Shown here piece by piece: positions 3,379-33,193 of a DNA stretch of 64,000 bases. The position numbers and the translations under genes are program-made. The first letter of the stretch is position 1, and each line of letters begins with the position of its first letter. The notes beneath the pieces are model-generated. The model did not search any database and was not told the DNA's origin. It saw nothing but the letters and a program-made list of their open reading frames with translations. The stretch comes from Chloroflexota bacterium (GTDB taxonomy: Bacteria > Chloroflexota > Dehalococcoidia > Lucifugimonadales > JACPCL1): assembly GCA_016179765.1 (NCBI GenBank), contig JACPCL010000037.1:1-64000 (forward strand), written 5' to 3'.

Positions 3379-4821
<1,443 letters not shown>

Positions 4822-9533: not shown

Positions 9534-9821
9534 TTACTGGCACACCGGCGTGTACTCTGCGATGAGCTGCTTCTGCCGTTCTTCAATCCTAGCTTGCCCT
9601 GCGCCGGCCATAATCTCGGCGTACCAGATATTGGGTTCGTTGGCGGTGATGTTCGGGCTATCGTTGTTGACGTGCCGCAGCATTCGCGCTTTGATATCGC
9701 CGCTGTTGCCTACAAAAAGGGCAATGCCGTCCTTAAAGATGCCATAGACCCCGGGTCGGAACCCAGGAAACGCCATCACGTCTTTCCGGTTGTAGGGGCG
9801 CTGCTCACCTTGAAAGGGCAT
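9534..9821 (-). CDS. GIY-YIG domain protein
   Basis: A 95-residue protein beginning MPFQGEQRPYNRKDVM. The start at 9821 is set by AAGGAGG seven bases upstream; a longer in-frame ORF reaches 10139 but its upstream part is a transposase relic. The GIY-YIG core is visible: GVYGIF (24-29), LFVGNSGDIKARMLRHV with the GIY-YIG arginine, and a downstream glutamate in ARIEERQKQLIAEYTP. It is a single-domain protein like many small GIY-YIG family members whose nuclease role is unproven. No operon partner is evident. Confidence 0.8.
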   Translation of the reverse strand: MPFQGEQRPYNRKDVMAFPGFRPGVYGIFKDGIALFVGNSGDIKARMLRHVNNDSPNITANEPNIWYAEIMAGAGQARIEERQKQLIAEYTPVCQ

Positions 9822-9980
9822 ATCATCCTCCTTGCGCAGAGGGATTTGCTGAGTTGCCAAGCGATTGAGGTGCAGCCACTGAACCAAGAGAGTTCCGTGG
9901 CCGCCACGGTGGACCTTCCGCCCCCACCTACCCCACGGCTGAGACGGAAGGATGTGTCCAAAACGCACTATATATCCGGG

Positions 9981-10139
9981 ATTTCCCATTTCAATTCGGG
10001 CTGTCTCCGTCAACCCCAGTGCCCCGTCCAGTTCCCGACAGGCCAGCAGTCCCGTATCCGAGGTGATCCTGGCCCCGTGGAACTCCAGTCTCAGCCGCTC
10101 GTCGAATTGAAGTCTACAGTGCCTGCTGACCCTTTTCAC
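9981..10139 (-). pseudogene. N-terminal relic of an IS1380-like transposase
   Basis: The minus-strand frame starting at GTG 10139 encodes about 53 residues with the pattern RLRLEFHGARITSDTGLLACRELD-GALGLTETA, which resembles the N terminus of IS1380-family DDE transposases (FHGARITSDAGLL.FRELD). The similarity stops near residue 53 and the frame then runs, by chance open, into the GIY-YIG gene. The rest of the transposase is absent, so this is a dead fragment. The interval 9822-10301 holds only this relic and a terminator. Confidence 0.6.
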
Positions 10140-10301: not shown

Positions 10302-11714
10302 CTATCCGTTGTTTCTTGCCGGTCTCCTGACCAAGTAAACGACCACAGCGGCTATTATTGCCGCCACCACCATGCCTACCACGACCCAGACCCATTGGAA
10401 GGGCTTGGGAACCACTGGACGCACCGGTGTGGGGGTGGGTGTACGGACCGGCGGTGGCGGGGTGGGAGTAGAGGTAGGCGTCACCACCGGCGGCGGGGCA
10501 AGCGTTGGGGTCGGCGCCGGACTCGGTGTAGGCGCAGGCAGGGCCCGGGTCAACACGGCAAACAGAGTGAAGTGGCTGGTCCGCCCGGTAATGGTGTTGG
10601 TAACCGGGTCTACTAGAATATCGCTCAACTGGGTCCACTGGCCTAGGGTCCTATCATAGTAGGCTATTACCAGGTCTTCTTCTCGTACCCCCGGTGATAT
10701 CAAAGCTGGGTCATACGGGAAGGTCACCGATATAGGAGGAGCAAAGGTTGCCCCGTCTGGCTTAAAGTCATAGGGCAGTCCAATGAAACGCTGTTCAGGG
10801 GGAGCAGGCGGAGGCGCCACGAAAGGCTCAATGCTTATGCTTTCCAGAGGCCTGCCCTCCGCGGTCAGGGCCCTGGTCCCTACAGGTGCATCTATCGTGG
10901 CCGTCCCATCTGCCGAGGTGGCCACCACCCTTTCTGTTATGATACCTGCGGACGTAATCCTCCCCGTCAGGTTCACTGTCACCGGTGGCACAGGAATCGG
11001 GGTGGGAATGGGCGTGGGCGTGGGTGTGACCGTAGGCGTCCGCGTAGGTGAAAGTGTCGGCGTAGGCGTCAATGTTCCTGTGGGAGTAGGCATAGGCGTC
11101 GCCGTGGGCGTTGGCGTGAGTGTAGGCGTAGGTGTTGGTGTAGGGCTGAACGTTGCAGTAGGCGTCAACCCTCCTCCTCCACCTCCGCCTGCGGGTTGCG
11201 TAGCCGTGGCTGTGGCGGTGGCCGTAGCTGTAGGCGTAGCCGTGGCTGTGGCAGTGGCCGTAGCTGTAGGCGTAGCCGTGGCTGTGGGCGTGGGTAGGAG
11301 CCCCGGCTGTGACACAAGGGTCAAATTCAGCCGTTGTACATCTTGCGGGTAATACGGCCACTCCTGCGGGGCGAATGCCCCTACGGTGCCAGAGGGCGTC
11401 ACTTTGAAGCGTATGGTAAGGCCGACGTCCGCGTCGCTGCCCCGAACAATGAGCTTTGGGTCACCGCCACCCGCGCCGCCGTACTGGCCTGCTACGGTTG
11501 TGGTAATGCAACCCTTGCTTACATCCTGTAGGTAGCCGCAAACCTCAGTGCCAGAGGGCGCAGGTGTGCCGGCGATGGTGATGGTCCCCCAGAAGGCGGC
11601 CGGCAGGGGCGGTATCCCCCCCTGCGGCAGCACGAGGGTTCCGCCAGCCCCTAGCCATAGCAGCAGGCCAAGGGCAGGCGCAACTGCAAGCGTCCATCTC
11701 GGGAGGCGTGGCAT
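10302..11714 (-). CDS. Thr-Pro-rich membrane-anchored surface protein
   Basis: A 470-residue exported protein. Residues 1-29 form a signal peptide, followed by a beta-type domain ([20 protein letters not shown]...[18 protein letters not shown]), then about 100 residues of Thr/Pro/Ala repeats with a Gly run (about 140-255), a second beta domain ([19 protein letters not shown] ... [19 protein letters not shown] ... [10 protein letters not shown]), another Thr-Pro linker and a C-terminal membrane helix (about 440-462) with VRRPARNNG at the end. The layout is like a cell-wall-sorted protein but no LPXTG-type motif is seen before the helix. It is 10 bases downstream of the repeat-protein gene and likely in one operon with it. 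Confidence 0.8.
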
Positions 11715-11724
11715 GCTCCTTATA

Positions 11725-14238
11725 TTACCAGACTGGCGTCATGCTGAATCCCGCCAGGGTGTCGGAGGCAGCCATGTAGACAAAGTAGCCACGCCACCGC
11801 GCCAGGGAGGGTATGTCAGTGGTGTTGTTCCAGGACCAGACCACCGACGTGCCGTCAAAGGGTAGCGACACCACCTGGGTGAAGTTCGGGACGGTGCTGG
11901 CGGGGATGTTGTACAGGCTGCCCAGGAGCTCGTTGGCAGGCAGGCTCACGGTGTTCGGGGGCAGCGCCGTGCCCGCCAGGTTCCAGCCAGCGCTCAAGGC
12001 CCTAGTCGGTGGCGAGGATATGTCCTGGCTCACCAGCAGCCGGACCTGGTGGCTGGTGGTGGAACGGACGACGATGGCCTCCAGGGGCAGGATGGTGTCC
12101 CCAGTCACAATCTGGTCCCAGGCCTGGGTCACGGCGTTGAACCTGTAGGCGATCGTGACATTCGCCGGGTCCATCATGCCGTCCTGGGAGGAGGCGCCGA
12201 AGGTCCCCGCGGTGGTGAATACCTTGTTCTTGAGCGTCGTGGCGCGGAGAGGGATAGAGAAGCTGGACCAGCCTGCCCTCAGGGTTGTGCCCAGGGCCGT
12301 GAGCTCCGAGGCGTCGGCCAGGGAAGCCGCGTCGGCCTGGGGCTTGCCAGCGATCGCCAATACGACCTCCGACAGCGTGGCCCCGTCGGACCTGGCCATG
12401 CCCGGCACGCGCACCAGGGAGTCGGATAGAGTGGCCCCGTCCGCCTTGGGCAAGCCCAGGAGCAGGCTCTCGGCCAGGGTCGCTGCGTCAGCCTTAGGCA
12501 GCCCCAGCAGCAGGGCGGCCGCCAGGCCTACGGCCTCGGAGCGGGGCAGGTTCAGCGCCTTCTGGAGGGCGTCGGCCAGGGAGGCGGTGTCCTCCCGAGG
12601 GAGGGTCAGGCCCTTGAGGATGGAGTCCGTTAGGGAAGCGGCGTCGCCGCGAGGCAGCGTCGCCGCCACCTGGAGGGTGGCGGCCAGGGTGGTGGCGTCA
12701 GCCCGGGGCATGTTCAGCGTCTTCTGGAGGGCGTCGGCCAGGGCGGCAGTGTCCTGCCTGGGCAGCGTCAGGCCCTTGAGGATGGAGTCCGCCAGGGAAG
12801 CGGCGTCGCCGCGAGGCATAGTCGCCGCCACCTGGAGGGTGGCGGCCAGGGTGGCGGCGTCGGAGCGGGAGATGGCCAGCGCGTTCTGAAGGGCATCGGC
12901 CAGGGCGGCCTGCTCCTGCCTGGGCAGCGTCAGGCTCTTGAGGACGGAGTCCGCCAGGGCCATCCCGTCGGCCCGGGGCAGCGCGGCGGCCACCTGGAGC
13001 GTCGCCGCCAGGGCGACCGCCTCGGAGCGGGGCAGGCCCAGGGCGTTCTGAAGGCCGTCGGTCAGGACCGCTGCGTCAGCCTTGGGCAGGCCCAGCAGGA
13101 CGCTCTCCGCCAGGGTCGCTGCGTCAGTCTTCGGCAGGCCCAGCAAGAGGGCGGCGGCCAGGCTTATGGCCTCAGAGCGGGGCAGGCCCAGCGCCTTCTG
13201 GAGGGCGTCGGCCAGGGCAGCGGTATCTTCCCGCGGCAGCGTCAGGCTCTTGAGGAGGGAGTCCGCCAGGGCCACCCCGTCGGCCCGGGGCAGCGCGGCG
13301 GCCACCTGGAGCGTCGCCGCCAGAGTGACGGCGTCGCCCCGGGAGATGGCCAGCGCGTTCTGGAGGGCGTCGGCCAGGGAGGCAGTGTCCTGCTTGGGCA
13401 GCGTCAGATTATTGAGGATGGAGTCCGCCAGGGAAGCGGCGTCGCCCCGGGGCATGGTGGCCGCCATCTGGAGGGTCGCCGCCAGGGTGGCGGCGTCGTC
13501 CCGGGAGATGTTCAGGGTCTTCTGAATGGTGTCGGCCAGGGCCGCCGTGTCCGCCTTCGGCAGGCCCAGGAGCAGGCTCTCGGCCAGGGTCGCTGCATCA
13601 GCCTTAGGTAGCCCCAGCAGCAGGGCGGCAGCCAGCGTCACGGCCTCGGACCGGGAGATGGCCAGCACGTTCTGGAGGGCGTCGGCCAGGGCGGCGGTGT
13701 CCTGCTTGGGCAACGTCAGGCTCTTGAGGATGGAGTCCACCAGGGCCACCCCGTCGGCCCGGGGCAGGGTGGCCGCCACCTGGAGCGTCGCCGCCAGGGT
13801 GACGGCGTCATCTCGCGAGATGTTCAGGACCTTCTGAATGGCGTCGGCCAGGGCCGCCGTGTCCTGCCGAGGTATGCCCAGCAGGAGGCTCTCGGCCAGG
13901 GAAGCGGCGTCGCCGCGGGGCATGGTGGCCGCCGCCTGGAGCGCCGCCGCCAGGGCTGCGGCGTCGGAGCGGGGCAGGCCCAGGGCGTTCTGCAGGGTTT
14001 CGGCGAGAGCGGCGGTATCACTCCTGGGGAAGGTGGCCGCCTTCTGGACCGATTCGGTAACGGTTACGGCGTCCGGGCACCCTATCCTCAGGATGGTCCC
14101 TCCGCCGGTAAACTGGATGAGAGAGCAGTTACCCAGGGTCTCTACATCAATGATCGCCCAGACGGTCGTGGGCAGAAGGACTCCCAGCAGCAGGGCCAGG
14201 ATGCCCGAGAGGACCCATACATTCAGGAGCTTGCGCAT
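11725..14238 (-). CDS. exported protein made of about 33 tandem 18-residue repeats
   Basis: An 837-residue protein with a signal peptide (1-28, ending TTVWA), a short Cys-containing segment (GNCSL...RIGCPDAV), then residues 70-650 made of about 33 units of 18 residues (seven units are 16 residues). A typical unit is [18 protein letters not shown]; [LIM][PS][RK]xDaAxLAxxLQxAx is the general form and predicts one helix plus turn per unit. The C-terminal 187 residues form a different beta-rich domain with two related halves ([12 protein letters not shown] ... [13 protein letters not shown] ... [11 protein letters not shown]). I do not recognise the repeat. It neighbours other surface proteins and a sortase; a stalk or adhesin role is a guess. 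Confidence 0.85.
12289..14031 (-). repeat. 1.74-kb intragenic tandem repeat (54/48-base units)
   Basis: DNA coding for residues 70-650 of the repeat protein. The basic unit is 54 bases (variants of 48). A higher-order pattern of about four to five units recurs (for example the block ending [20 protein letters not shown] appears near 13560-13620, 13100-13150 and 12440-12510), which suggests growth by unequal recombination of multi-unit blocks. Expect assembly uncertainty in copy number. Confidence 0.85.
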
Positions 14239-14313: not shown

Positions 14314-14465
14314 GTCATTCTGAGTCCTTCCGTGGAAGGACGAAGAATCTTGTTCGCCCTCAGAGAGAAACGCCTCAGGGCAATCCCGACACGTCGGGAC
14401 TTGGGCAGGCAGACAAGATGCATTCGGTGGTCCTTCCTACGCGGGAAGGACTCCCTCAGCATGAC
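14314..14465. repeat. dispersed GTCATTCTGA-type palindromic repeat
   Basis: Starts GTCATTCTGAGTCCTTCCGT and ends CTCAGCATGAC in inverted orientation, with inner GAAGGAC pairs. Same family as 5531-5699. It fills the spacer between the repeat-protein gene and the 14517-14993 gene. Confidence 0.7.
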
Positions 14466-15069: not shown

Positions 15070-15285
15070 GTCGTTGCGAGCCCCGATACAATTGGGGCGT
15101 GGCAACCTGGTGGTGGGGTCTACCACCCCGCCAGATTGCTTCGCTCGCTCGCAATGACAACCCGACGGGGTTCGTTCGTCGTCATTGCGAGCCCCGATTT
15201 CATCGGGGCGTGGCAACCTGGGGTAGGGGGGCACCCCGCCCCAGATTCTTCGTCCCGACTATATCGGGACGAAGAATCTGGGGCT
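15070..15285. repeat. compound GTCRTTGCGAG-type palindromic repeats
   Basis: Two adjacent copies: GTCGTTGCGAGCCCCGATAC (15070) with an inverted GCTCGCAATGAC near 15148-15160, and CGTCATTGCGAGCCCCGATT from 15180, each followed by GGGGCGTGGCAACCTGG, then hairpins around ATTCTTCGTCCCGAC / GTCGGGACGAAGAAT-like sequence (15243-15283). The interval 14994-15372 has no gene and is mostly this repeat material. Confidence 0.75.
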
Positions 15286-15372
15286 GCTCAACACTCTCAT
15301 GGGGGCAAGGGGGCGGCTTTGGCGCGCCGCCCCTGCCCTTCAACTATGGGCTTGTGTCAGCCTCTACGCGGC

Positions 15373-15966
15373 CTAGGTAACGGTTATCGTCCACGTCACC
15401 TGCAGCGTGTCGGCAGCGGCCAGGACGATGGTGACTAGCTTGACGGCCCCAATGGTTGCCGTAGTGGGGGCAGTGGAAGCCGCGAGGGTTTTGCTGAGCT
15501 CAAGCTCGTTGATCGTCGACGCATCAGTAGCCGTGAAGGTCGTAACAGCCGTGTAAACGCCCTGGCTCGTGTTCGTAACGGAGGCCAACACGGGGTTTGT
15601 ACCGATGTTAGACGAAAGGGTACAGGCTGCGGTCGGGGTGGCGCCGTTTGCAGTGACCCCCGTCGAGGCAGTTGAGCACGCCGAGATGTTCGAATATAGT
15701 GCAGCAGCATCCACGGTGGTTACCGTGCTGAGCCGGGTTCGTGCGTCATTCACGAAGTTACTCGAAGTGAAGTTGTGGCCAACGCCCTGTGACTTCAGAA
15801 CACCGTCAGCGCCAAACACCTTCCAGTCAACGTTGGTCTTGATCAAAGCGTTCTCGCCGGCGCCGCCGCTTGGGTTGAAGGCCCACAGGGCCATGGCGGC
15901 TATCAGGGCCAGCACTACGACCAACGCTGGTATCCCAAACCTTACCAATCTTGCTTGACTCGCCAT
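15373..15966 (-). CDS. membrane-anchored extracellular beta-domain protein
   Basis: A 197-residue protein beginning MASQARLVRFGIPALVVV; the start at 15966 is fixed by AAGGAGG six bases upstream. One N-terminal membrane helix (about 9-29) is followed by a domain of about 165 residues rich in Thr, Ser, Ala and Val: NVDWKVFGADGVLKSQGVGHN near its start, FVNDARTRL, and LAAADTLQVTWTITVT at the end. The K.....DG.V...G.N.ft..F.n.aR.... / .aaDtLqvtWtitV pattern is one I associate with tail- or filament-like structural proteins in bacteria and phages, but the family cannot be named. It is the most upstream of the four co-directional surface genes. Confidence 0.75.
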   Translation of the reverse strand: MASQARLVRFGIPALVVVLALIAAMALWAFNPSGGAGENALIKTNVDWKVFGADGVLKSQGVGHNFTSSNFVNDARTRLSTVTTVDAAALYSNISACSTASTGVTANGATPTAACTLSSNIGTNPVLASVTNTSQGVYTAVTTFTATDASTINELELSKTLAASTAPTTATIGAVKLVTIVLAAADTLQVTWTITVT

Positions 15967-16183
15967 TCTCAGCCTCCTTATGGCTACTCGTTGGTTGGTG
16001 TCCACATTACCGTCCGCCCCAGGCGGACAGGATAGTCCCTGTGTGACCTTCTTTTTGGTTTATCTCTTCATTCGCCTGCTCACCTCCGTGTAGAAGGGGA
16101 TAGTCTCCGTGCCAACAACCATGCCGGGGAATGCTTAAGAGACCTAACCCCCTTTCCTCATAGCGCTGACAGGCGCCTGGGTA

Positions 16184-17161: not shown

Positions 17162-18019
17162 TCAGACAGGGGGCCTGACGCCCACCAGCCTGGCGGTCAC
17201 CACCAGGCGATAGTCGTACACAAGAGCGGGGATACAAGTGACCAGCGTAATCTCGGATTCTCCGGAGTCGGTCACGCGCAACTCCGTCTTGTACACGACA
17301 TTGGTGGCGTACACCTCATACAGATAGTTTCCTGTGGACGATTCCAGCACGATAAGCACCCGCTCGCCCTGACGAAGCAAGCCTGGGATGCGCGGAAGGT
17401 CACGGAACACCGAGCCCTCGTTGCGCAGGGGAGTTTCCAGATGGCCGAAGTACCAGCCTCTGCCGGCTTCTCCTGGATTGCCGGTCGTTGGGATGTGCCC
17501 CACCACCTGGTCGGGGGTCTCGTACTCCCGGGAGTTTTCCAGCTCACGGATGGCCAGTCCCTTTACGGTGGCGTCCACCTCAATGCTGGGGATCCAGATG
17601 CGAGTAGCCGCTGGCAGCATGCCCACACCGGAAAGGAGCTCCTTTGGCGCCGGCAGGAACCCCCGGACAAACTCCGAGTCGTCGGTGGGAGGAGCAGAGG
17701 CCAGCCAAGGCTCAACCCAGGAGTTAAAGGGCATCAGAGGGCCAGGATAGAGGCCAAGGGTAGAGGGAGTGGGACCCGCCAGCCCTCCCACTTCAGCAAG
17801 ATTGAAGGAGGCCGGCCCCTGCAGGTCTTCCAGCGTTGTTGGCCCGAGGGCTTCCCCCAGGGACTGACCTGATGGCTGCTGGCTATAGACCAGGCCATCC
17901 AGGTTCTGGGTGGCCACCTTGCCGTACACCAGATACGCGCCGCTCAGGAAAACGACGAGCGCCCCGCTCAGCGCCACGAGCCAGGCCAATGGGCGGCCCT
18001 TGTCTTTCTTGCTCACCAT
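17162..18019 (-). CDS. sortase family protein (class D/E-like)
   Basis: Membrane-anchored transpeptidase candidate of about 285 residues (start taken at MVSKKDKGRPLAWLV; an ATG 11 codons upstream is also possible). It has an N-terminal membrane helix (about 11-33), a Pro/Gly-rich linker, and the sortase beta-barrel from about residue 135 (TRIWIPSIEVDATV). The catalytic residues are visible: His in GRGWYFGHLE, Cys in SEITLVTCIP and Arg in YDYRLVV. TLVTC with a downstream Arg fits the family. No LPXTG protein was found in the window; the Thr-Pro-rich protein at 10302-11714 has a C-terminal helix and basic tail but no recognisable sorting motif. The sortase is on the same strand as the surface genes, separated by relics. 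Confidence 0.9.
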   Translation of the reverse strand: MVSKKDKGRPLAWLVALSGALVVFLSGAYLVYGKVATQNLDGLVYSQQPSGQSLGEALGPTTLEDLQGPASFNLAEVGGLAGPTPSTLGLYPGPLMPFNSWVEPWLASAPPTDDSEFVRGFLPAPKELLSGVGMLPAATRIWIPSIEVDATVKGLAIRELENSREYETPDQVVGHIPTTGNPGEAGRGWYFGHLETPLRNEGSVFRDLPRIPGLLRQGERVLIVLESSTGNYLYEVYATNVVYKTELRVTDSGESEITLVTCIPALVYDYRLVVTARLVGVRPPV

Positions 18020-18065
18020 GATGCCCTGAAGATTCCGAGGTTGACAGTCCAAGGTGGGCTGCCCC

Positions 18066-19411: not shown

Positions 19412-20353
19412 CTAGCCAGGAAGGCTCCGGCTGCCCAGCGCGACGTCTATCGCTATGCCCGCGGCCATGAGCAGCCCCGCCTGCATGTGCAGCCTGGCGG
19501 TGCCCACCAGCACGGCGTTGAGGGCGGGCCGGGCCTTGGCCCGGGACACCAGGCCCACCATCTTGAAGGCGCGGGGCATGGAGAGGAGAGCGGCAAGGGC
19601 GTACCACGGGACCACTCCGGCCATGGCCTCTACTACCAGCGCAGCGTACGCCCCGTACAGCAGCCAAGCATAGACCCAGCGGCCCACCTGAACGCTGAAC
19701 AGCGTGGCAAGGGTGTGCTTCCCCTGGGCGCTGTCCTCCTCCCGGTCACGCAGGTTGTTGGCCTGGAGGATAGCCGTGACCCACAAAGCAACCGGCACGG
19801 AGGCCCAGAAGACCGCCCAGGTGACCTCTTGCCTTTGCACGTAGAAGGCAGCCATGACGATGAGCGGCCCCATGAAGATGAAGACCGTCAGCTCCCCCAG
19901 AAGGTAGCGCCCCAAGGGGAAGGGGCCGCTGCTGTGGAGGTACCCCGCCATGGTGCTCAGCAGGCCCACCACCAGGATAGGCCATCCCACCTGGGCAACG
20001 ATGTACAGGCCCATGGCGGTGCTCAGGCCAAAGCTCACCAGGAGGCCCATGAGCACGGCTTGCGGAGAAAGCAACCCCCGCGCGATCACCTTATGGGGCG
20101 CGGGGTACTTGGCCTCACGCCCCTGGCTGCGGTGGTCGGTGTATTCGTCCGCCAGGTTGGTGCCCACCTGGATGAACACCGACCCCAGGAAGGCCAGGGC
20201 AAAGAGCGCCCAGCTCAGCGGCCCGTGCTCAGCCGCCAGCGCCGTGCCCACCAGCACCGGCACGATGGCGGCGGTCAGGGTGACCGGCCGCGCCGCCAGT
20301 ATCCAGACCCTGACGTAATAGGCCAGGTCACGCCGGAAAGGCCGGGCTACCAC
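19412..20353 (-). CDS. menA: 1,4-dihydroxy-2-naphthoate polyprenyltransferase
   Basis: UbiA-superfamily membrane enzyme attaching the polyprenyl tail to DHNA to give demethylmenaquinone. 313 residues with about eight to nine hydrophobic helices. The first Asp-rich motif is [15 protein letters not shown] (about 66-80) and the second is [14 protein letters not shown] (about 197-210), both as expected. The start is GTG at 20353, overlapping the menB stop (7-base overlap), so the two are translationally coupled. C-terminal elements ([19 protein letters not shown]) fit MenA rather than UbiA. Confidence 0.93.
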
Positions 20354-21141
20354 GGCGTCTTTCGGAAGCGGGAGAAGTCGGGGTCCCGCTTCTCCAGGAA
20401 GGCCTGGGTGCCCTCCCTGCCCTCCTCGGTGGCGTAATAGAAGGCGGTGGCCCCGTGGGCCAGGTTCTGGATACCGTAGACGTGGTCGGTGTCGGCGTTG
20501 AAGGCGTGCTTCAGAAAGCGCAGGGCGGTGGGGCCACGCCCGAGCAGCTCTTTGGCCCAGGCCATCACCTCCGCCTCAAGCCCCCCCTGGGGCACCACCT
20601 TGTTTACCAGGCCCATCTCCAGGGCCTCCTGGGCCGTGTACCGCCGGCATAGGTACCATATCTCTCGGGCCTTCTTCTCGCCGACGATCCGTGCCAGGTA
20701 AATGGCGCCAAAGCCGGCGTCAAAGCTGCCGTACTTGGGGCCGATCTGGCCAAAGACCGCCCGGTCCGAGGCGATGGTGAGGTCGCACAGGACGTGCAGC
20801 ACGTGGCCGCCGCCGATGGCGTACCCATCCACCATGGCAATGACCGGCTTGGGGATTTCGCGGATGATGCGGTGCAGGTGCGTTACCTGGAGCCTGGGGG
20901 CGCCGCTTTCGTCGTTGTAGCCCCCGTCGCCGCGGGCCTTCACGTCGCCGCCCACGCAGAAGTTGCCCCTGGCCCCCGCGAGCACCACCACGCCGACCTC
21001 CTCGTCGTCCCAGGCGTCCTGGAAGGCGGCGCGCATCTCGTCAATGGTGCGTGGGCGGAAGGCATTGAGCACCTGCGGGCGGTTGATGGTGACTTTGGCT
21101 ACGTGGTCTTTCTTCTCATACAGAACGTCCTGGAAGTCCAT
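20347..21141 (-). CDS. menB: 1,4-dihydroxy-2-naphthoyl-CoA synthase
   Basis: Crotonase-superfamily enzyme closing the ring of O-succinylbenzoyl-CoA. 264 residues. The MenB-specific stretch [20 protein letters not shown] is present, as are [11 protein letters not shown] and the oxyanion-hole [16 protein letters not shown]. The C terminus [15 protein letters not shown] is typical. The start ATG has AAGGAGCG six bases upstream. It is the first gene of menB-menA, with a CaiB-like relic and a long palindromic element immediately upstream. Confidence 0.95.
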
Positions 21142-21189
21142 GGGATCGCTCCTTTTTTGGATGTGCCCATACGGTCTTTCCCTTGCCCC

Positions 21190-21318
21190 CTATACTACCC
21201 CCTTCTCCCGCAGGCGGCCAAGTTCTCCTAGGGAGGCGTATACTACCTTCCGAAAAGGTGTCCAGCGTTATGTTCCTCTTGCCACGGTTCACGCTTATGA
21301 AGAGGGCGCCGTCGTCCC
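21190..21318 (-). pseudogene. relic of a CaiB/BaiF-type CoA-transferase
   Basis: Between menB and the palindromic element the minus strand encodes VGDDGALFISVNRGKRNITL (then DTFSEG), matching the FLSvNRGKRSi.LD motif near the N terminus of family III CoA-transferases. After a frame change it encodes YASLGELGRLREKGVV and a TAG at 21190-21192, like the usual C terminus (.LGEL....EI.RLREKGVV). The whole catalytic body is missing. The upstream end is cut at the palindromic element. Short, so only moderately sure. Confidence 0.45.
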
Positions 21319-21521
21319 CTACCCTCCCCCAGGGGACGCTGGGGGAACTTCTTTTGGGTGAAAAGAAGTCCCCCCATACCCTCTCAAGAAAACCGGGCTC
21401 AGTTTGGTTGGCGGGGGCATTAGCCCCCGCCAACCAAACTGATTGTGGTTCTTTTTGGAGGGCGTGGGAACCTTTTTCTCCCCCAAGAAAAAGGTTCCCA
21501 GCCTCCCTGGGGAGGTGGGGA
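21316..21521. repeat. large palindromic element upstream of menC
   Basis: Centre: AGTTTGGTTGGCGGGGGC (21401-21418), loop ATTA, GCCCCCGCCAACCAAACT (21423-21440), an 18-base perfect stem. The flanks are also inverted copies of each other: CCCCTACCCTCCCCCAGGGG at 21316 against CCTCCCTGGGGAGGTGGGG at the right end, with matching inner parts (GGGGGAACTTCTTTTGGG / AAAAAGGTTCCCAG). The element is therefore one roughly 205-base inverted repeat, MITE-like. Its right end (GGGAGGTGGGG) directly precedes the menC ATG and serves as its Shine-Dalgarno. Confidence 0.8.
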
Positions 21522-22663
21522 TGAAGGTCGTGGGAGTGGCGTGGCAGGGCTTTGCGTTGCCCTTCCGGAAACCGTATGTGACGAGCGAGGGGCGGGCCAC
21601 GGTGAAGTTTGGGATGCTGGTGACGCTACTGAGCGATGACGGCGTCACCGGCATCGGCGAGGCGTCACCAGTTGGCCCCAGCGCCCAGGCCGAAGTGAAG
21701 GCAGAAGCGGCCTTACTGGAAAGCCTGGCGCCCCACGTTGTGCGCGGTGCAAGGCCCGGCGCCGGTGTACCCATATGGACAGAGGACCAACTGCCAGACC
21801 TCAGGCCCTTTGTCGCGCTGCCATCCCTCGCCTTCGGCCTGGAGACGGCGTACCTTGACCTGCTGAGCAAGGCCAGGGGAAAGAGCATCTGCGAGCTCTT
21901 GGGCTGGACACGACAAGAACTGCCCGTCAACGCCATCATCGCCTCAGACTCGCCCCAAGAGGCGGCGGCGGAGGCCGCCCAGGCGGTAACGGAAGGCTTT
22001 ACCAGCCTCAAGCTCAAGGTAGGCCAGGGGTTAGAGACGGACGTTGCCCTGGTGGGGGCGGTGAGAGGCGCAGTGGGGCCTTCCGTCAAGCTGCGGGCGG
22101 ACACCAATGGGGCCTGGACCGTCCCCCATGCGATGGAGGCCATCAGGAGGCTGGCTCCCTTTGACCTGGAGTACGTGGAGCAGCCGGTGGCGGCCCACGA
22201 CCTGCCGGGTATGGCGATGGTGCGTCGCAGCGGGTCTGTGCCCATCGCCGCCGACGAGGCCCTGCGTTCGCCCGGCGACGTGGAACGCATAGCGAAGGCC
22301 GGGGCTGCCGACATCTTCGTCCTGAAGGCGGCGCGACTGGGCGGATTGCGGGCCTCCTTGCAAGCGGTAGAGGCCGCGGACCGATGGGGCAAGACCTGTG
22401 TCGTAACCTCCTCCCTGGAATCAGGCGTGGGCCTGGCAGCCTCGGCCCACCTCGCATCCTTTCTTGAACGACATCCCTTCGCCCACGGGCTGGCAACGGG
22501 CCTGCTGTACCTTTCGGACCTGCTGGAAAGGCCTCTTCTGCCCAAGGGGCAAACCCTGCCCACGCCCCAAGGCCCAGGGCTGGGCGTAGCGTTGGACCAA
22601 GAGCAGTTGCGACGGTACGCCATAGACATCAGGGGGAGCGCCGGAGCGCCCGTGCTCCTGTAG
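21521..22663 (+). CDS. menC: o-succinylbenzoate synthase
   Basis: Enolase-superfamily dehydratase making O-succinylbenzoate from SHCHC. 380 residues from MKVVGVAWQGFALPF; the start at 21521 follows GGGGAGG closely, and the longer frame runs back through the palindromic element. Catalytic elements: LKLKVGQ (KxK), the metal ligands RADTNGAW, LEYVEQP and ADEAL, and the second-lysine region VLKAARLGGL. It is the only men gene on the plus strand; its last 35 bases overlap, convergently, the 3' end of menH. Confidence 0.93.
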   Translation: MKVVGVAWQGFALPFRKPYVTSEGRATVKFGMLVTLLSDDGVTGIGEASPVGPSAQAEVKAEAALLESLAPHVVRGARPGAGVPIWTEDQLPDLRPFVALPSLAFGLETAYLDLLSKARGKSICELLGWTRQELPVNAIIASDSPQEAAAEAAQAVTEGFTSLKLKVGQGLETDVALVGAVRGAVGPSVKLRADTNGAWTVPHAMEAIRRLAPFDLEYVEQPVAAHDLPGMAMVRRSGSVPIAADEALRSPGDVERIAKAGAADIFVLKAARLGGLRASLQAVEAADRWGKTCVVTSSLESGVGLAASAHLASFLERHPFAHGLATGLLYLSDLLERPLLPKGQTLPTPQGPGLGVALDQEQLRRYAIDIRGSAGAPVLL

Positions 22664-23507
22664 GCCCCGCGGGCACGGTGGCCACCGCGTTCAAAAAGGC
22701 AGCTACCTGCTTCACAAAGGCCGCGGGCTGCTCCAGGTGGGCGGCATGGCCCGCCTCCTTGATGATGTGCAGCCGGCTGCCCGCCACGGCCTTGTGCATC
22801 TCCTGGGCCATAGCTACGTAGCGGGCGTCATCCTCGCCAGCGATGAACAGCGCCGGGGCTGTGATCTCGCGCAGGCGGTGGTAGAGGGCCGGCTGAGCGC
22901 CCGCGCCGACGCCCCGCAGGCTGTTGGCCAGGCCCAGGGGGTGGTTGTCCAACCGCTGGGCCCGCAGCCGCGCCCGGACCTCCGGGTCAAGGCGGGCCTG
23001 GCTGGCCCACAGCGGGAGAGCCTGCCAGTAGTCCACAAAAGGCGCTATGCCCACTTCAAGGAGCCAGTCTGCCATGCGCATGTCGTCCCGCACCCTGGCC
23101 GCTCGCTCCTGGGGCGCAGCCAGGCCTGGCGAGGCGCTTTCCAGGGTGAGGCTGGCCGTACGCGATGGCAAGGCGATGGCCGCGCTGAGGGCGATGCGTC
23201 CCCCCATGGAGTACCCCAGCCAGTGGATGCGCCCTACGTCCAGCAGGTCCAGGACCTCCTCCAGGGCCTGCACCGTGCGCTCCATGGTGTACAGGCGCGG
23301 GTCCTTGGGAGCGTCTGAAGCGCCGTGTCCCTGCACCTCCACGGCAAGCAGGCGGTAGCTTTCGCCTAGGGCGTCGGCCAGGAAGCGCCAGGTAGAGGCG
23401 CACCCTGTGAAACCGTGCAAGGCGAGCAGGGGCGCTCCGCGAGGCGCGCCCCACTCCTCCAAATTCAAGTGCGCGCCGTTCAGAGCTTTTATCGCCACAC
23501 GCGCCAT
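22629..23507 (-). CDS. menH: SHCHC synthase (alpha/beta hydrolase)
   Basis: Alpha/beta-hydrolase of 292 residues removing pyruvate from SEPHCHC. HGFTGCASTW forms the oxyanion region, the nucleophile is the Ser in GYSMGGR, and the catalytic His is in EAGHAAHLEQP. The start ATG at 23507 immediately follows the menD stop (TAG-ATG), indicating an operon with translational coupling. Its 3' end overlaps menC, which is on the other strand, by 35 bases. Assignment as MenH rests on the hydrolase pattern plus the menF-menD context. Confidence 0.9.
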   Translation of the reverse strand: MARVAIKALNGAHLNLEEWGAPRGAPLLALHGFTGCASTWRFLADALGESYRLLAVEVQGHGASDAPKDPRLYTMERTVQALEEVLDLLDVGRIHWLGYSMGGRIALSAAIALPSRTASLTLESASPGLAAPQERAARVRDDMRMADWLLEVGIAPFVDYWQALPLWASQARLDPEVRARLRAQRLDNHPLGLANSLRGVGAGAQPALYHRLREITAPALFIAGEDDARYVAMAQEMHKAVAGSRLHIIKEAGHAAHLEQPAAFVKQVAAFLNAVATVPAGPTGARALRRSP

Positions 23508-25295
23508 CTAGGGCCTCACTGCGACGCCTATGGCGTCGCCCACCGCCTGCCACACCTGCCGGTGCAGAGCCACGTTGGTGTCGCGGGCAGGGACAGGCAC
23601 CTCAATGATGGCGACTCCCTTGTCTGTAAGGCTGTGCGATACCGCGCTCCTGTAACTGCGCCAGTCCTCCACCCTGGTATAGCCCAGGCCATACAGCTCT
23701 GCGGCGGCCTTGAAGGTAAGGCCGTGGGGCGTGCCAAAATAGGTTTCAAAGACATCGGTGTACGCCGCCTGGGGCAGAAAGGAGAAGATGCCGCCACCGT
23801 CATTGTTGATGACGATGATGGTAGCGTTAAGCTTGTGGGCCTTGGCCGCAAGGAGGCCGTTCATGTCGTGGTAAAAGGAGATGTCCCCAATCACCAGGAC
23901 AATGCGCCTGCCGGAGGCGGCGGCAGCGCCCAGGGCAGTGGACACCACGCCGTCTATGCCGCTGACCCCCCGGTTGGCGAGGAAGCGCACCTTCTTGCTC
24001 ATGGTGGGGAAGAAGGAGTCCACGTCCCGTACTGGCATGCTGTTGCCGGCAAAGAGGATGGCGTCATGGGGCAGAAGGGACGCTAGCTCTGCGAACACAC
24101 GCCCCTCAAACATCTCGGCGGAGGTCTTCATGTGGCGGGCGATGGCATCCTTGGCCGTCCCGTTCAGGGAGAGCCAGCGCCGCAGCCAGGGGCTTTCCAC
24201 TCTAGCGGAAGGCAGCGCAGCCGCCAGATCGCAGCAAAGGGGTGCGGCGTCGGCTTGAATCACCTCCGCCGTCAAAAAGGAGGGGTCGCGCCAGCCGGAG
24301 CCATCGTCCACCAAAACATGCCGCGCTGAGGGATGGCGCTCCAGGTATTGCGTGAGGGGCTTGGACACGGGCGCGGCGCCAAAACGCAGGACGACCTCCG
24401 GGGCCAGGGACGCCACGACGCCATTATCGCGGAGAAAGGCATCGTACCCGTCCACCACCATGGCGCGGTCGTGAGGGCCGCAGCGCACCTGGGAAAGGAC
24501 ATCGGCCAGCATCGGGTAACCCAGTCGGCGGGCCAGGGCGGAGACGGCCTCTGGAAAAGCGCCGTCCTCCTGCGGGCCGCAGACGATAAGCCCGCGCTCC
24601 TTGCTGGCAAGCTCTAAGGTCAGCCGCTCCACCAGACCGGGGGCAAGCCGCCTCTGAACGGGAGGAGCGCTGAGAAAGGGGCTACCCCCTGCCCGCCCCT
24701 GCCGGGCCAGGCCGAAGCCCTCCGAGGTGAAATCGCCAGGGACCGGCACGGGCTCCAGCGGCTCGCGGAAGGGGAGGTTCACGTGCACCGGGCCGGCGGG
24801 CGCGGCCCGGGCCGTCGCCCACGCCCGGCCCGCCACGGAGCGGACGTAGGCCAGCAGCGGGGCGGTGGCCTCGGGCGGCGGCAGCGTGACGGCCCATTTG
24901 GCGTGTCTACCGTACATGCCGTCCTGCTCCATCGTCTGCAAGGCGCCCCAGCCCACCGCTTCCGGCGGACGGTCCGCCGTCAAGACCAGCAGAGGCACGC
25001 AGTCGTTGTGCGCCTCGGCCACGGCGGGGTGGAGGTTGGCGGCGGCGGTGCCGGAGGAGCAAACGATGGCCACCGGCTCCCGCAGGAGACGGGTCATGCC
25101 CAGGGCAAAGAAGGCGGCGGAGCGCTCATCCAGGTGCATCCACTGCGTGATGGCGGGATGCCGCCCAAAGGAGAGGGCCAGAGGCGAGGAGCGGGAGCCG
25201 GGGCAGATGCAGACGTGGCGCAGGCCGCAGCGGGCCAGCTCGTCAACAAAGGCCCCGGCAAAGGAGTAGTTCCGGTTTTCAAAGGGGGTGGTCAC
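23508..25295 (-). CDS. menD: SEPHCHC synthase (MenD)
   Basis: Thiamine-diphosphate enzyme adding 2-oxoglutarate to isochorismate. 595 residues, full length. N-terminal FVDELARCGLRHVCICPGSR, the CSSGTAAANLHPAVAEAHND region around the ThDP glutamate, LTADRPPEAVGWGA, and the C-terminal ThDP-Mg motif GDISFYHDMNGL are all present. The start is GTG at 25295, overlapping the menF stop by four bases (GTGA). It is the middle gene of tetR-menF-menD-menH. Confidence 0.95.
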   Translation of the reverse strand: MTTPFENRNYSFAGAFVDELARCGLRHVCICPGSRSSPLALSFGRHPAITQWMHLDERSAAFFALGMTRLLREPVAIVCSSGTAAANLHPAVAEAHNDCVPLLVLTADRPPEAVGWGALQTMEQDGMYGRHAKWAVTLPPPEATAPLLAYVRSVAGRAWATARAAPAGPVHVNLPFREPLEPVPVPGDFTSEGFGLARQGRAGGSPFLSAPPVQRRLAPGLVERLTLELASKERGLIVCGPQEDGAFPEAVSALARRLGYPMLADVLSQVRCGPHDRAMVVDGYDAFLRDNGVVASLAPEVVLRFGAAPVSKPLTQYLERHPSARHVLVDDGSGWRDPSFLTAEVIQADAAPLCCDLAAALPSARVESPWLRRWLSLNGTAKDAIARHMKTSAEMFEGRVFAELASLLPHDAILFAGNSMPVRDVDSFFPTMSKKVRFLANRGVSGIDGVVSTALGAAAASGRRIVLVIGDISFYHDMNGLLAAKAHKLNATIIVINNDGGGIFSFLPQAAYTDVFETYFGTPHGLTFKAAAELYGLGYTRVEDWRSYRSAVSHSLTDKGVAIIEVPVPARDTNVALHRQVWQAVGDAIGVAVRP

Positions 25296-26698
25296 GCCTG
25301 TCCCAGCGCTTTCAACAGGGGCTGGAACTTCAGTTCCGTCTCCTGCTCTTCCTGCAGAGAGTTGGAGCCTTCCACAATGCCCGCGCCGGCGTAGAGGGTA
25401 GCCTGGCTGCCTCGCACCAGGGCCGAGCGTATGCCTACCCAGAACTCGCCCTGGCCCTGGGCGTCCAGCCAGCCAATAGGGGCGGCGTACCAGCCCCGGT
25501 CACCCTCCAACCGGCGAATGACCTCCAGGGCAGCGGCCTTTGGCGCTCCACCCACCGCGGGAGTGGGATGCAGCGCCGCAACCATGTCCAGGATGTCTTT
25601 GCCCTCCAGGGCACGCCCAAAGAAGGCGGTGGCCAGATGCTGGACGCCCCGCAGGCGCACCACCTTGGGCTGGGCTTCCCAGCACAGCTCCTGGCAAAGG
25701 TCGCGCAACTCAAGGGCCACCTGCTCCACCACCGCGGCGTGCTCCCGCCGCTCCTTGGAGCTGGACAGCAGAGCGTCGGCCAGGGAGTCGTCAGCATCGG
25801 CGCTTTCGCTCCGGGCGGCGGTGCCAGCCATGCACGTGAGGCTGAGCTCGCCGCCATGCAACTGCACCAAGGACTCAGGGGATGCCCCCAGGAAACAGGA
25901 GCCTCCGCTCTCCACTGCAAACACAGCGCAGCCGGGGTACGTCTCTTCAAGGCTGCCAAGGGTTGCCTCAAGGGAGAAGGGGGCCACCGCGCGCAGCTCC
26001 TTCCTCCGGGCCAGCACCACCTTAGACAGCTCCCCGCCGTCTATCGCCTGAAGGGCTGCCTCCATACGCCTACGCCACTCCTCTGGCAACGTCTCCTCCC
26101 CAAGGCAACTCGCCGGCTGGCGGCGGGGAATCTCCTGGCCGCCAGCCACGCTTTCCAGCGCCCGCTCCGCGGCAGCGGCAGCCTCCTGGGGGTCTTCGGA
26201 TGGCCCAACCATCACGTTAGCCGTAAGCCAAGTCTTGCCGCCTTCCCAGGTGAACATCAGGTGCGGTAAAGCAAGGAGGGCGTCGGGGAAATCGCCCCAT
26301 AGGGCATCCTTCGCCACGGTGGGATCAAAGCAGAACCCGCCCATGAGCAGAGGCCCGACGCCTCGCAGGCGTGGGCCTTGCAGGACCGCCCCGTCAACCA
26401 GAGAGCGCCATCCATCCTGCGTCTGCCGAGCAGGAGCGGGGCCAGCCGGCGCCACCTGAGCGGCCCGTCCCAGGCCCACCAGCCAGAACCTGTCGGCGGG
26501 CCTTCCCCAGAAGATGCGCGGAACCCCCAGCCTCTTGCCGGCGGCGAAGGTCACCAGGGGAGCCAGCGGCCAGTCTATGCTCTGGGCGAGGCTCACGAGC
26601 ACGGGGCGGCCCAGGAGGGCGGCCCGCTCCCTGGCCTGGGGGAACAGGAGAGCCAGGGTTTGGTGGAGCGAGGGGGCGGCCTGCGTGGACGCGGTCAT
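25292..26698 (-). CDS. menF: isochorismate synthase
   Basis: Chorismate-binding enzyme converting chorismate to isochorismate, the entry to menaquinone synthesis. 468 residues; the C-terminal half has the family motifs SKVVLARRKEL, FLGASPESLVQLHGGEL, GTAARSESADAD, SSKERREHAAVVE, HPTPAVGGAPKAAALEVI and GWYAAPIGWLDAQGQGEFWV. The N-terminal half is divergent, as usual. The start ATG overlaps the tetR stop (ATGA). Confidence 0.95.
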   Translation of the reverse strand: MTASTQAAPSLHQTLALLFPQARERAALLGRPVLVSLAQSIDWPLAPLVTFAAGKRLGVPRIFWGRPADRFWLVGLGRAAQVAPAGPAPARQTQDGWRSLVDGAVLQGPRLRGVGPLLMGGFCFDPTVAKDALWGDFPDALLALPHLMFTWEGGKTWLTANVMVGPSEDPQEAAAAAERALESVAGGQEIPRRQPASCLGEETLPEEWRRRMEAALQAIDGGELSKVVLARRKELRAVAPFSLEATLGSLEETYPGCAVFAVESGGSCFLGASPESLVQLHGGELSLTCMAGTAARSESADADDSLADALLSSSKERREHAAVVEQVALELRDLCQELCWEAQPKVVRLRGVQHLATAFFGRALEGKDILDMVAALHPTPAVGGAPKAAALEVIRRLEGDRGWYAAPIGWLDAQGQGEFWVGIRSALVRGSQATLYAGAGIVEGSNSLQEEQETELKFQPLLKALGQA

Positions 26699-29894: not shown

Positions 29895-30476
29895 ATGTTC
29901 TTATGGCCTGAAGCTGAACGCACCGTCAGGACCGCATTGCTTTCCCGCGAACAAACGCAAGGCCCCTCTTCTACACGCTCGGCCATCGCCAATCTCTACG
30001 AGACCCACTTTGAGCGCGTGGCCCGCTATATCAGTGTGCGCATTGGCAATTTTTCGGAGGCGCAAGACCTGGCGAGCGAGGTGTTCATACGCGCGCTGCG
30101 TTCCGCCGACTCCTACAAGGACGTGGGAGCGCCCCTGGAGGCCTGGCTCTTCAAGATTGCCCGCAACCTCTCCATTGACCACCTGCGGCAGAAGGCACGG
30201 CGTCCCGTCCAGGTGCCGGTGGAGGCCCTCTTTTCCCTGGCCGCAGACACGGACGACCCCATAGATAGCCTGCACCACCAAGAGGAGGTCAAACGGCTCC
30301 ATGACGCAGTCCAGCACCTCTCGGAGGCGCAGCGACAGGTGATAGCCTTGCGCTTCGGCGGTGAGATGTCCGCCGATGAGATTGCCCTGGTCATGGGCAA
30401 GAAGCCGGGAGCGGTGCGGGAGATGCAGAGCGCCGCCATTCGCAAGCTGCGCCAGCTATTAGGGGAGGAGACCTAA
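29895..30476 (+). CDS. ECF-type RNA polymerase sigma factor
   Basis: A 193-residue sigma factor. Region 2: NLYETHFERVARYISVRIGN then FSEAQDLASEVFIRAL and EAWLFKIARNLSIDHLRQKA; region 4: LSEAQRQVIALRFGGEMSAD then EIALVMGKKPGAVREMQSAA. No obvious ECF-type anti-sigma zinc motif follows; instead, 14 bases downstream, starts the 900-residue membrane protein, which I infer to be its partner. The start at 29895 lacks a good Shine-Dalgarno; a slightly later start is possible. A TATGCT/TATCAT-like -10 is near 29861-29870. Confidence 0.9.
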   Translation: MFLWPEAERTVRTALLSREQTQGPSSTRSAIANLYETHFERVARYISVRIGNFSEAQDLASEVFIRALRSADSYKDVGAPLEAWLFKIARNLSIDHLRQKARRPVQVPVEALFSLAADTDDPIDSLHHQEEVKRLHDAVQHLSEAQRQVIALRFGGEMSADEIALVMGKKPGAVREMQSAAIRKLRQLLGEET

Positions 30477-30490
30477 GAGCGGATAGTGAC

Positions 30491-33193
30491 ATGGAGAATA
30501 ACCTGGAACAGCTTCTGGACGAGTGCATTGACCGCATCGCTTTCCGGGGCGAGGCGGTACAGGATTGCCTTGCCCGGCACCCGCAGCGCGCCGCAGAGCT
30601 GGAGCCGTACCTGCGCATCGTGACACGGTACGCCGCCGCCTTCCAGGAAACGCCCTCGGAAGCCGCCAAGGAGCTGGGTCGCCAGCGCCTCAAGGCGGAG
30701 CTGGACGCCCTGCGTGCGGCCGGGGCCAACGGCTCGCCGCAACCAGGCCAGCTTACGCCCCCTCCATCAACCCTTGCCAGCGCTGCCTCCTTTGACGAGG
30801 CGCTAGACCACAGCATCACCCGCATCCTCCGGGGCGAGCCTGTGGAGGCGTGCCTGGCCACCTACCCCGGCCACGCCGCAGCGCTGGCGCCCCACCTGCG
30901 CATCGCGGCCATGACGGTAGAGGCTGCTGCGGTGCAGGTAGACGCCAACGCCAAAGCCCAGGGCCGCCTCCGCCTGCAAGCCGAGCTGGCGGCCCTCCAG
31001 CGGGTACAGGTCTCTGTACCGGCGAGGCGAAACCCCTGGCCGTCCCTGGCCGTCCCTCTACAGCAGAGGTGGGCGGTGGCCAGCACCGCCGCTGCCTTCG
31101 CCCTGTTCCTCGGGGGCTTCGGCCTGGTATCCGCCTCGGATGACGCCCTGCCTGGGCAGCCCCTTTACCCGGTCAAACGCACCGCCGAGGAGGTGCGCCT
31201 GGTGCTGGACTTCTCGCCTGAGGCGAAAGCCCACCGCTACCTCTCCTACGCCGAGCGCCGGGGCCAGGAGATAAGCCTCCTGATCCAACAGGGAGAGCAA
31301 ACAAAAGTCAGCGACCCCCAGGCAGCTCTGGTGAAACACATCGCCAGCGCGGCCACCATCGCTGCTGAGCTTGATAAGCCAGAGGCCGTTTCCAAGCTGC
31401 AAACGAGGTTTGAGCAGAACGCCTCCCAAATCTTGGCAGAACTCCAGACCTCCCTGCAAACCTCTCCGAAAGAGGCTAGGCAGACGGCCAGGGAGAGCTT
31501 CAAGTCTGTTGGACAGGCCTACAGCGAACGGATTCAGGATGTCGCCGCCAAGGCCCCAAAGGTCGTGACCTCCCCAGGCATCCTGCAGCTCCGGGCCACG
31601 AACCCGCTTCCCCCGGGCATAGAAGCCATCCTCCTGAAGGTAAGCCGGATTGAGGCCCATAGGGCCGACTGGCCGGACGACCGCTGGATTGACGTCGCCA
31701 CCTCCTCCCAGGAGCTTGACCTGCTGCGCCTGGGAGAGGTGCAGAGGTTTCTTGGGGAGTTGGAGGTGCCAGCGGGCGTCTACACCCAGCTACGCATTGC
31801 CATTCAGGAGGCGACGGTGGTGGTAGGCGGCGTGGCCTACCCTGTCCAGGTCCCTGGGGAGACGCTGCATTTGACTCGCCCCTTCCGCGTGGAGGCGGGC
31901 AAGACCACCGTGGCCCTGCTGGACTTTGACGGCACGGCCTCCCTCCGCGCCACAGGAGTGGACAACTACATCCTGAACCCCCAGGTCCATCTCCTGGCCC
32001 GGGAGCCGCAAGAGACGCAGAAGAAGGGCAAGGAGACAGACACGCCGAACATCGCCGACAGCCGCCAGACGGTCGCCCCGGCCTCGGCTCCAGAGCACCC
32101 TTCAACCCCTTCCAAACCCTCGCAGCGCCAGGAGAGCAAGGTGGAGGTGTTGGAGGTGGAGGGCGACATCAAGAAGGTGCTGGATGGCATCTTCCAGGTC
32201 GGCGATGCGAGCATCATCCTGCCTCCTGGCGCTGACGCCTTTACCTATGAGGTCGTGCTGCAAGAGGGGCAAAGGGTGAAGGTAGAGGTGGCCGTCCAGC
32301 CCGATGGCGCCTTCCTCGCCCAGGAGGTCAAGGCTGCCGGCAGCAAGGTCCTGGAAAGGCTAACGGACGACTCCTCGGGCCGGGCCACCCCCTCTCCTCG
32401 GGTCACGACCTTTCAAGGAATCCTGGAGACCATGGCCCCGCAAACCTGGAGCGTCGCCAGCCAAACGGTGCGCATCAGCCTGGATACGAAGATTAACGGC
32501 ATTGCCTTCGTTGGCGCCCGCATAGAAGTAAAAGGCATCCTCCAAATAGACGGCACGTTCCTTGCCAGAGAGATCACGGTCAAGTCAGCAACTCCATCGC
32601 CAACCCCCGCAAGCGGCAAACGGGGTCAGGAGACGAATACGGACAAGGAAAGCCAGGAGGTGCAGGTCAAGGGCATCCTGAGGCTGGACAGCCCAGGGGT
32701 CTGGTCCGTAGACGGGCGAAGGGTCATCATCGGCGCCGACACGGAGGTCCGCGGCGCCATATCGGTGGGGCGAGAGGTGGAGGTGATGGGAAAAGAGCTG
32801 CCCGACGGCACAGTCAAGGCCGCCAGGGTAACATCCACCCGTAGCGCCCTTCTGCCTGGGAACGGGGCGTCCCCTACGCCTACCCCTAGCGTTGCCCGTC
32901 CGACGCCTGCCCTCACCCCAACGCCAACGCCTACGCCCCCTTCCACCATTCGGCCCAGGCGGACTCCCACCTCCACACCAGTGCGCCAGACGCCACAGGC
33001 GGAGGAAGCGAAGTTTGAAGGCGCCGTAGAGGTCATGATTGGAAGGCACCTGGTGATAAGCGGCCGCCGCGTGGAGGTTGCTTCCAACACCAGGATTGAA
33101 GGTATCATCGCCGTGGGCGTCAAGGTGAGAGTAGAAGGTGAGGTGGGCGCCAATGGTGTTATCATGGCTGTGCTCATACGAGTTATCACTTAG
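30491..33193 (+). CDS. putative membrane anti-sigma protein with DUF5667, DUF4382 and DUF5666-like domains
   Basis: A 900-residue protein 14 bases downstream of the ECF sigma gene. Two related N-terminal segments (LDECIDRIAFRGEAVQDCLA, RHPQRAAELEPYLRI; and DHSITRILRGEPVEACLATY) face the cytoplasm, then one membrane helix (about 193-215). Outside: a DUF5667-like stretch (LPGQPLYPVKRTAEEVRLVL, about 220-255), a helical segment, a DUF4382-like domain (about 373-506, with ILLKVSRIEAHRAD and GVYTQLRIAI), then four DUF5666-like beta units (starting about 551, 640, 723 and 840) separated by linkers, one Thr-Pro-rich. The N-terminal part is the likely sigma-binding part; the outer domains are likely sensing. 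Assigned from context and domain resemblance, not from a proven family. Confidence 0.78.
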   Translation: MENNLEQLLDECIDRIAFRGEAVQDCLARHPQRAAELEPYLRIVTRYAAAFQETPSEAAKELGRQRLKAELDALRAAGANGSPQPGQLTPPPSTLASAASFDEALDHSITRILRGEPVEACLATYPGHAAALAPHLRIAAMTVEAAAVQVDANAKAQGRLRLQAELAALQRVQVSVPARRNPWPSLAVPLQQRWAVASTAAAFALFLGGFGLVSASDDALPGQPLYPVKRTAEEVRLVLDFSPEAKAHRYLSYAERRGQEISLLIQQGEQTKVSDPQAALVKHIASAATIAAELDKPEAVSKLQTRFEQNASQILAELQTSLQTSPKEARQTARESFKSVGQAYSERIQDVAAKAPKVVTSPGILQLRATNPLPPGIEAILLKVSRIEAHRADWPDDRWIDVATSSQELDLLRLGEVQRFLGELEVPAGVYTQLRIAIQEATVVVGGVAYPVQVPGETLHLTRPFRVEAGKTTVALLDFDGTASLRATGVDNYILNPQVHLLAREPQETQKKGKETDTPNIADSRQTVAPASAPEHPSTPSKPSQRQESKVEVLEVEGDIKKVLDGIFQVGDASIILPPGADAFTYEVVLQEGQRVKVEVAVQPDGAFLAQEVKAAGSKVLERLTDDSSGRATPSPRVTTFQGILETMAPQTWSVASQTVRISLDTKINGIAFVGARIEVKGILQIDGTFLAREITVKSATPSPTPASGKRGQETNTDKESQEVQVKGILRLDSPGVWSVDGRRVIIGADTEVRGAISVGREVEVMGKELPDGTVKAARVTSTRSALLPGNGASPTPTPSVARPTPALTPTPTPTPPSTIRPRRTPTSTPVRQTPQAEEAKFEGAVEVMIGRHLVISGRRVEVASNTRIEGIIAVGVKVRVEGEVGANGVIMAVLIRVIT

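Follow-up and report, generated by a model that had tools for sequence, protein, structure and literature searches.

Fibrillar adhesins consist of a stalk and an adhesive domain (PMC9210967). The window analysed here, a 64,000-nucleotide stretch of DNA from a Chloroflexota bacterium, encodes a protein that resembles them in being apparently exported, repetitive and presumably made of a stalk and a terminal domain, but in which no sortase anchor was found, and searches of Pfam and NCBIfam gave no known stalk or adhesive domain. The account that I favour as a whole, with modest confidence, is that it is a surface fibre or stalk, built as a solenoid of a repeat that has no name, with a C-terminal domain held by a partner protein. 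The cell-surface biology of uncultured Chloroflexota is poorly known, and the locus would represent a conserved two-gene surface module of these organisms, pairing a variable exported protein that carries a shared C-terminal domain with a Pro/Thr-rich, membrane-anchored partner.

The open reading frame has the position, strand and length given for it in the preliminary description (Table 1). Its N-terminus looks by eye like a signal peptide, as does that of an orthologue, in agreement with the export proposed there, and the protein is probably exported and located at the surface. The two cysteines, C38 and C54, form with a degenerate unit 0 an N-terminal cap region that is conserved in the alignment with the orthologue L065. 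Read directly, the C-terminus possesses no transmembrane (TM) helix, anchor or LPXTG-like motif.

The repeat itself, announced as about 33 copies over residues 70–650 with a spacing of 18 and sometimes 16 residues, is real and was accurately described. A motif parse returned 33 units, with a spacing of 18 in 25 of 32 cases, 16 in the other seven, and no other value. Lags of 18, 54 and 158 give the sequence a self-match of 0.35, 0.39 and 0.48, far above chance (maximum of 0.20 in 300 shuffles), and TRF reports periods of 54, 162 and 474 bp in the gene. The unit consensus is [LIM]-P-[RK]-x-[DE]-A-A-x-L-A-[DE]-[AS]-[LIV]-[QL]-x-A-L-[GT], where L9 is invariant and position 5 is D or E in all 33 units, while proline occupies position 2 in 27 of them.

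The higher-order blocks of four to five units that had been proposed proved to be something else, namely a strict three-unit cycle, labeled A-B-C, so that the real period, or working unit, is 54 residues. All 11 A units are 18 residues long, and the 16-mers are confined to B (three) and C (four). When the arrays of the window protein and the orthologue are compared, mean unit identity is 0.52–0.66 at offsets that are multiples of three, versus 0.36–0.41 at all others. Both unit counts follow the same rule, 33 (11 × 3) in the window and 36 (12 × 3) in the orthologue, whose extra residues align as one block of about three units; this comparison of copy number, one of the checks suggested at the outset, is between the window protein and the orthologue. 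In-phase units have a pN/pS of 0.43–0.58, suggesting that the protein sequence is constrained. The frequent proline at position 2, together with an amphipathic periodicity, would also fit proline-punctuated, apolipoprotein-like amphipathic helices that coat lipid or hydrophobic surfaces and do not stack. However, the strict three-unit phase and the phase-specific 16-mers imply contacts from unit to unit, and the relatives described below are Thr/Ser-rich, making such a coat very improbable.

No established repeat family accounts for these units, as the preliminary description had held. No Pfam family reaches its cut-off with the window protein, the best being HTH_PafC (25.6, cut-off 32), which scores 30.3 with the orthologue over only 46 of its 115 positions, and no named family of helical or solenoid repeats there (TPR, PPR, HEAT, ARM, TAL and others) is above its gathering cut-off. 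Searches of NCBIfam and the PDB gave nothing convincing for the repeat units, and no account of them turned up in the literature searched. The matches to HTH_PafC, undecaprenyl-diphosphate phosphatase, tape-measure protein and TniB are partial, sub-threshold and compositional, and were rejected. The window protein is, as far as these searches reach, a clean and highly regular member of a repeat with no name, Pfam entry or structure, and its regular 54-residue unit makes a convenient starting point for determining the fold.

Orthologues were sought in 84,980 species genomes, using the most conserved C-terminal peptides as query. Two relatives were found, both in metagenome-assembled genomes (MAGs) of Chloroflexota and outside the order of the window but within the same class. 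The first, on JAUYDU010000501.1 (genome G858), is complete, with 883 residues and 36 units; the second, on JACPQM010000052.1 (genome G654), comes from a groundwater Chloroflexi MAG and is partial, its contig ending inside the repeats. The repeat protein is absent from three draft genomes of the window's own genus, hence its distribution is patchy.

The gene order in the window (210 aa, 158 aa, repeat protein, 470 aa) is conserved in G858 (228 aa, 161 aa, repeat protein, PT-rich protein), and blastp between corresponding neighbours gives E-values of 1e-9 (210/228), 1e-34 (158/161) and 2e-38 (470/PT-rich). The partner gene starts 10 bp after the repeat gene. On the other side, the 158-residue protein contains two 'SLxQALxxALGLTxExAxxLAxxLQ' helical pairs, and its similarity to the repeat is marginal (E 0.03; 0.008 for its G858 orthologue, Z=10). 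The sortase, judging from its position in the window, may be linked to this surface cluster.

Table 1. Features of the repeat-protein locus, with nucleotide positions in the window.
Feature	Position	Strand	Remarks
Repeat-protein gene	11725..14238	-	837 aa; read from the sequence as a signal peptide, an N-terminal cap containing two cysteines, the 33 units and the C-terminal domain
Signal-peptide-like segment, aa 1–28	14155..14238	-	read directly; conserved in orthologue L061/L065
Degenerate unit 0, aa 52–69	14032..14085	-	alignment with orthologue L065
33 repeat units, aa 70–649	12292..14031	-	units of 18 or 16 aa in a strict A-B-C cycle; motif parse
C-terminal domain, aa 644–837	11728..12309	-	two GW[SN]xxSxPL-type halves; occurs on other surface proteins too
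Downstream partner gene, 470 aa	10302..11714	-	signal peptide, conserved domain, Pro/Thr-rich stalk, C-terminal TM helix
Upstream gene, 158 aa	14517..14993	-	N-terminal TM helix; C-terminal VxDAxGKxK; 50% identical in G858
Upstream gene, 210 aa, TM-anchored	15373..16005	-	29% identity with its positional counterpart in G858
Sortase (Pfam PF04203)	17162..18052	-	upstream of the repeat gene

A number of other features were seen in and around the cluster. The repeat gene is preceded by a gap of 278 bp in the window versus about 35 bp in G858, which suggests insertion of a REP/MITE-like element, and the palindromes TCATTCTGAGTCCTTCCGTGGAAGGACGAAGAATCT and GATTCTTCGTCCCGATATAGTCGGGACGAAGAATC lie in cluster gaps, at 14315–14350 and about 15250–15290. 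The Pro/Thr/Ala stalk of the 470-residue partner is encoded by a 36-bp tandem repeat (11198–11291, 2.5 copies, 98% match). An open reading frame at 9534–10139 (minus strand) begins with a transposase fragment (PF13701, E 7e-5) and continues into unrelated sequence, and is probably a decayed insertion. Beside the surface cluster, the region 19412–26698 (minus strand) encodes a UbiA-family prenyltransferase, a member of the enoyl-CoA hydratase family, a hydrolase, a TPP enzyme and a chorismate-binding enzyme, and is probably a menaquinone gene cluster. Further along, at 29895–33190 (plus strand), an ECF-type sigma factor is followed by a 900-residue protein with DUF5667, DUF4382 and DUF5666.

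The C-terminal domain is present in eight of 197 genomes of the order, that of the window included. Elsewhere the N-terminal part attached to it differs, examples being very long open frames and an exported 200-residue protein, and on sequence grounds the domain appears to be a separate, transferable module. In one genome (G134, L099 4105–5271), an in-frame TAG at about 4705–4707 splits the frame of the domain from the exported 200-residue N-terminal part, and could be the mark of a pseudogene or a sequencing error. The domain had been described as beta-rich with GW motifs: it is strand-rich in a low-confidence model, but the comparison with GW modules fails, as the 'GW' belongs to motifs of the GW[SN]xxSxPL type and Pfam gives no GW-domain match in this region, which argues that it is not the Listeria GW module.

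In G000, G858, G654, G134, G002 and G040, the next gene after the C-terminal domain starts with the conserved partner domain, and in G073 the two domains are on one contig. Conversely, the four strongest copies of the partner domain among 147 genomes are all beside a C-terminal domain. In the complete copies read (for example those of the window and G654), the partner proteins are Pro/Thr-rich with a C-terminal TM helix. This gene adjacency suggests that the protein with the C-terminal domain and its partner may act together at the surface. The partner in G654 (L062 1640–4123) is an exported protein in which a long PT-rich stalk is accompanied by short-helix repeats resembling those of MgtE_N/FliG_M, matched by PF03448 with an E-value of 1.6e-20, an unusual place for that domain.

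The implication that the repeat stands alone did not survive a wider search, since relatives occur in tailed-phage structural modules and in other surface proteins of Chloroflexota. A profile of the window's units found two other Chloroflexota proteins, of 2230 residues with TM and BACON domains (G172) and of 1920 residues with DUF11 domains (G216). They have in common with the window protein repeats with an [LF]PR motif, in units of 16 or 18 residues in G172 and of 16 in G216, but are Thr/Ser-rich, have a two-unit or single-unit phase, and carry BACON or DUF11 instead of the window's C-terminal domain. Other matches of the profile are spurious, falling in His/Pro-rich low complexity (G546) or where there is no matching coding ORF (G686, G067).

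The register of the window repeat agrees with a 'LSDSVTLTDSVSKSLGLS' pattern of surface proteins. With this pattern as query, the best match among 301 Chloroflexota genomes is the window protein (E 9e-7), and nine viral contigs also came up; matches in G521 and G534 are short simple repeats and were left uncounted. As this query was composed after the window had been seen, natural proteins were tested independently. The protein L079 (IMGVR_UViG_3300015373_000280), with the repeat 'SDTITLTDAIxKxxGLNK', was used as sole query, and its only match in the 301 Chloroflexota genomes is the window protein (E 1e-23). A two-unit HMM was then built from the window protein and L065, with reversed and five position-permuted versions of the target proteins as controls. 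It scores 93.9 bits with L079, 66.2 with G172, 26.7 with G216 and 17.2 with L084; the reversed controls score -24.9, 0.7, 3.3 and -16.2 respectively, and the permuted ones at most 4.2 (1.8 for L079). The L079 result and the failure of these controls argue that the window repeat is an Ala/Leu-rich variant of a broader unnamed repeat, apparently shared by tailed-phage structural modules and Chloroflexota surface proteins. With bias correction, the same HMM fails to separate L080, L082, L083, L086 and L087 from the controls, and the kinship of their repeats with that of the window is unproven. The family phrog_12240 matches the window protein (1.3e-7), as well as L079, L080 and L083, but was given little weight because the reversed window protein is also matched (2.1e-4) and the orthologue is not.

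The L079 gene is located between phage head-morphogenesis and head-protease genes. L087 has a major head gene nearby, and such repeats also occur in L086, a baseplate-wedge protein. With its closest relatives outside Chloroflexota in phage structural modules, the window protein might itself be part of a prophage or of a phage-derived particle. However, no phage genes surround the repeat gene, whose flanks hold the sortase, menaquinone and tryptophan genes, and the orthologue has the same surface-protein neighbours. There is also no match to phage records, either by tblastn of the repeat region against phages and plasmids or in viral contigs searched with a full-length or C-terminal alignment. 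The neighbourhood rules against a prophage origin, which I consider scarcely credible.

Which fold the repeat adopts is less clear-cut, and the surface stalk favoured above accommodates two sub-hypotheses. Two AlphaFold2 runs, supplied with alignments of blocks from the protein itself and of orthologues, draw almost all units as a single helix each and give the C-terminal domain strands, both with low confidence (pLDDT 52.7 and 44.5; pTM 0.39 and 0.34). Foldseek with such a model gave no PDB match at E ≤ 0.001, and its top matches, nucleoside transporters, are above this value and meaningless. From the preliminary description, a long exported stalk to which a distinct C-terminal domain is added is kept as the best reading, while its 'helical' part is unproven at such pLDDT values. 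That part corresponds to an alpha-solenoid, in which each unit would form one helix (about residues 5–17) with an LP-R turn, with three helices per 54-residue superhelical repeat; I regard it as evenly poised between right and wrong. Besides the two predictions, it is consistent with a hydrophobic moment that is greater at 100 degrees than at 170 in the window protein, L065, L079 and L084, and with the propensities of the window repeat (helix 1.10, strand 0.96). However, an Ala/Leu-rich sequence with almost no alignment is expected to come out helical, the relatives are rich in Thr, Ser, Val and Ile, and 16-, 18- and 20-mers interchange.

The other sub-hypothesis is a beta-solenoid, where each unit of 16, 18 or 20 residues would be one coil that turns close to the conserved Asp 5 and 11, a serious contender if somewhat short of probable. 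Of 185 unit spacings in ten proteins, 175 are even (16, 18, 20 or 22), including 32 of 32 in the window and 34 of 34 in the orthologue, although those of a single protein do not count as independent of one another. Even lengths are expected if residues alternate in and out, and beta structure explains them more simply. Strand propensity exceeds that of helix in L079, L084, L080 and L086, and alanine in the window protein replaces Thr, Ser or Val at matching positions of the relatives. Since the GC content of the window is 0.63 and the GC3 of the repeat gene 0.89, this replacement may reflect composition drift, and the helical look of the window copy would then be a by-product. Against this, most members have a hydrophobic periodicity closer to that of an alpha helix, and AlphaFold2 draws no strands in the repeats. 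For the window protein, I lean slightly to helix. A bolder proposal, which I find rather unlikely, is that of a single unnamed even-step superfamily (16/18/20/22) spanning tailed-phage virion proteins and bacterial stalks, which here either switched from strand to helix through Thr/Val-to-Ala replacement, or kept an Ala/Leu-rich beta-solenoid.

In the surface stalk that I favour, the 33 units would stack as a solenoid of 11 three-unit turns of 54 residues, capped at the N-terminus by the cysteine-containing segment and unit 0, and ending in the two-part C-terminal domain. This domain would pair with the membrane-anchored, Pro/Thr-rich partner and so hold the stalk at the cell surface. Copy number would shift by whole three-unit blocks, and the repeat would be a form, rich in alanine and leucine, of the unnamed repeat of 16, 18 or 20 residues that has a D-x-[IV]-x-L-x-D core.

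Among known short-helix solenoids, those of MgtE_N and FliG_M resemble the window repeat in their 'LPxxxAxxLxxL' style, but have a period of about 12, by eye in the G654 partner, and PF03448 does not match the window protein. Another comparison is with the 'SDTITLTD' phage repeats (L079, L084, L086 and partly phrog_12240), in which the D-x-[IV]-x-L-x-D core is found. The window repeat shares with them its 18-residue register, D5, L9, D11 and basic residues at positions 3 and 15. In contrast to the phage repeats, it is Ala/Leu-rich, with a proline at position 2 and a strict three-unit phase, and it belongs to what appears to be an exported bacterial protein with a C-terminal domain of its own.
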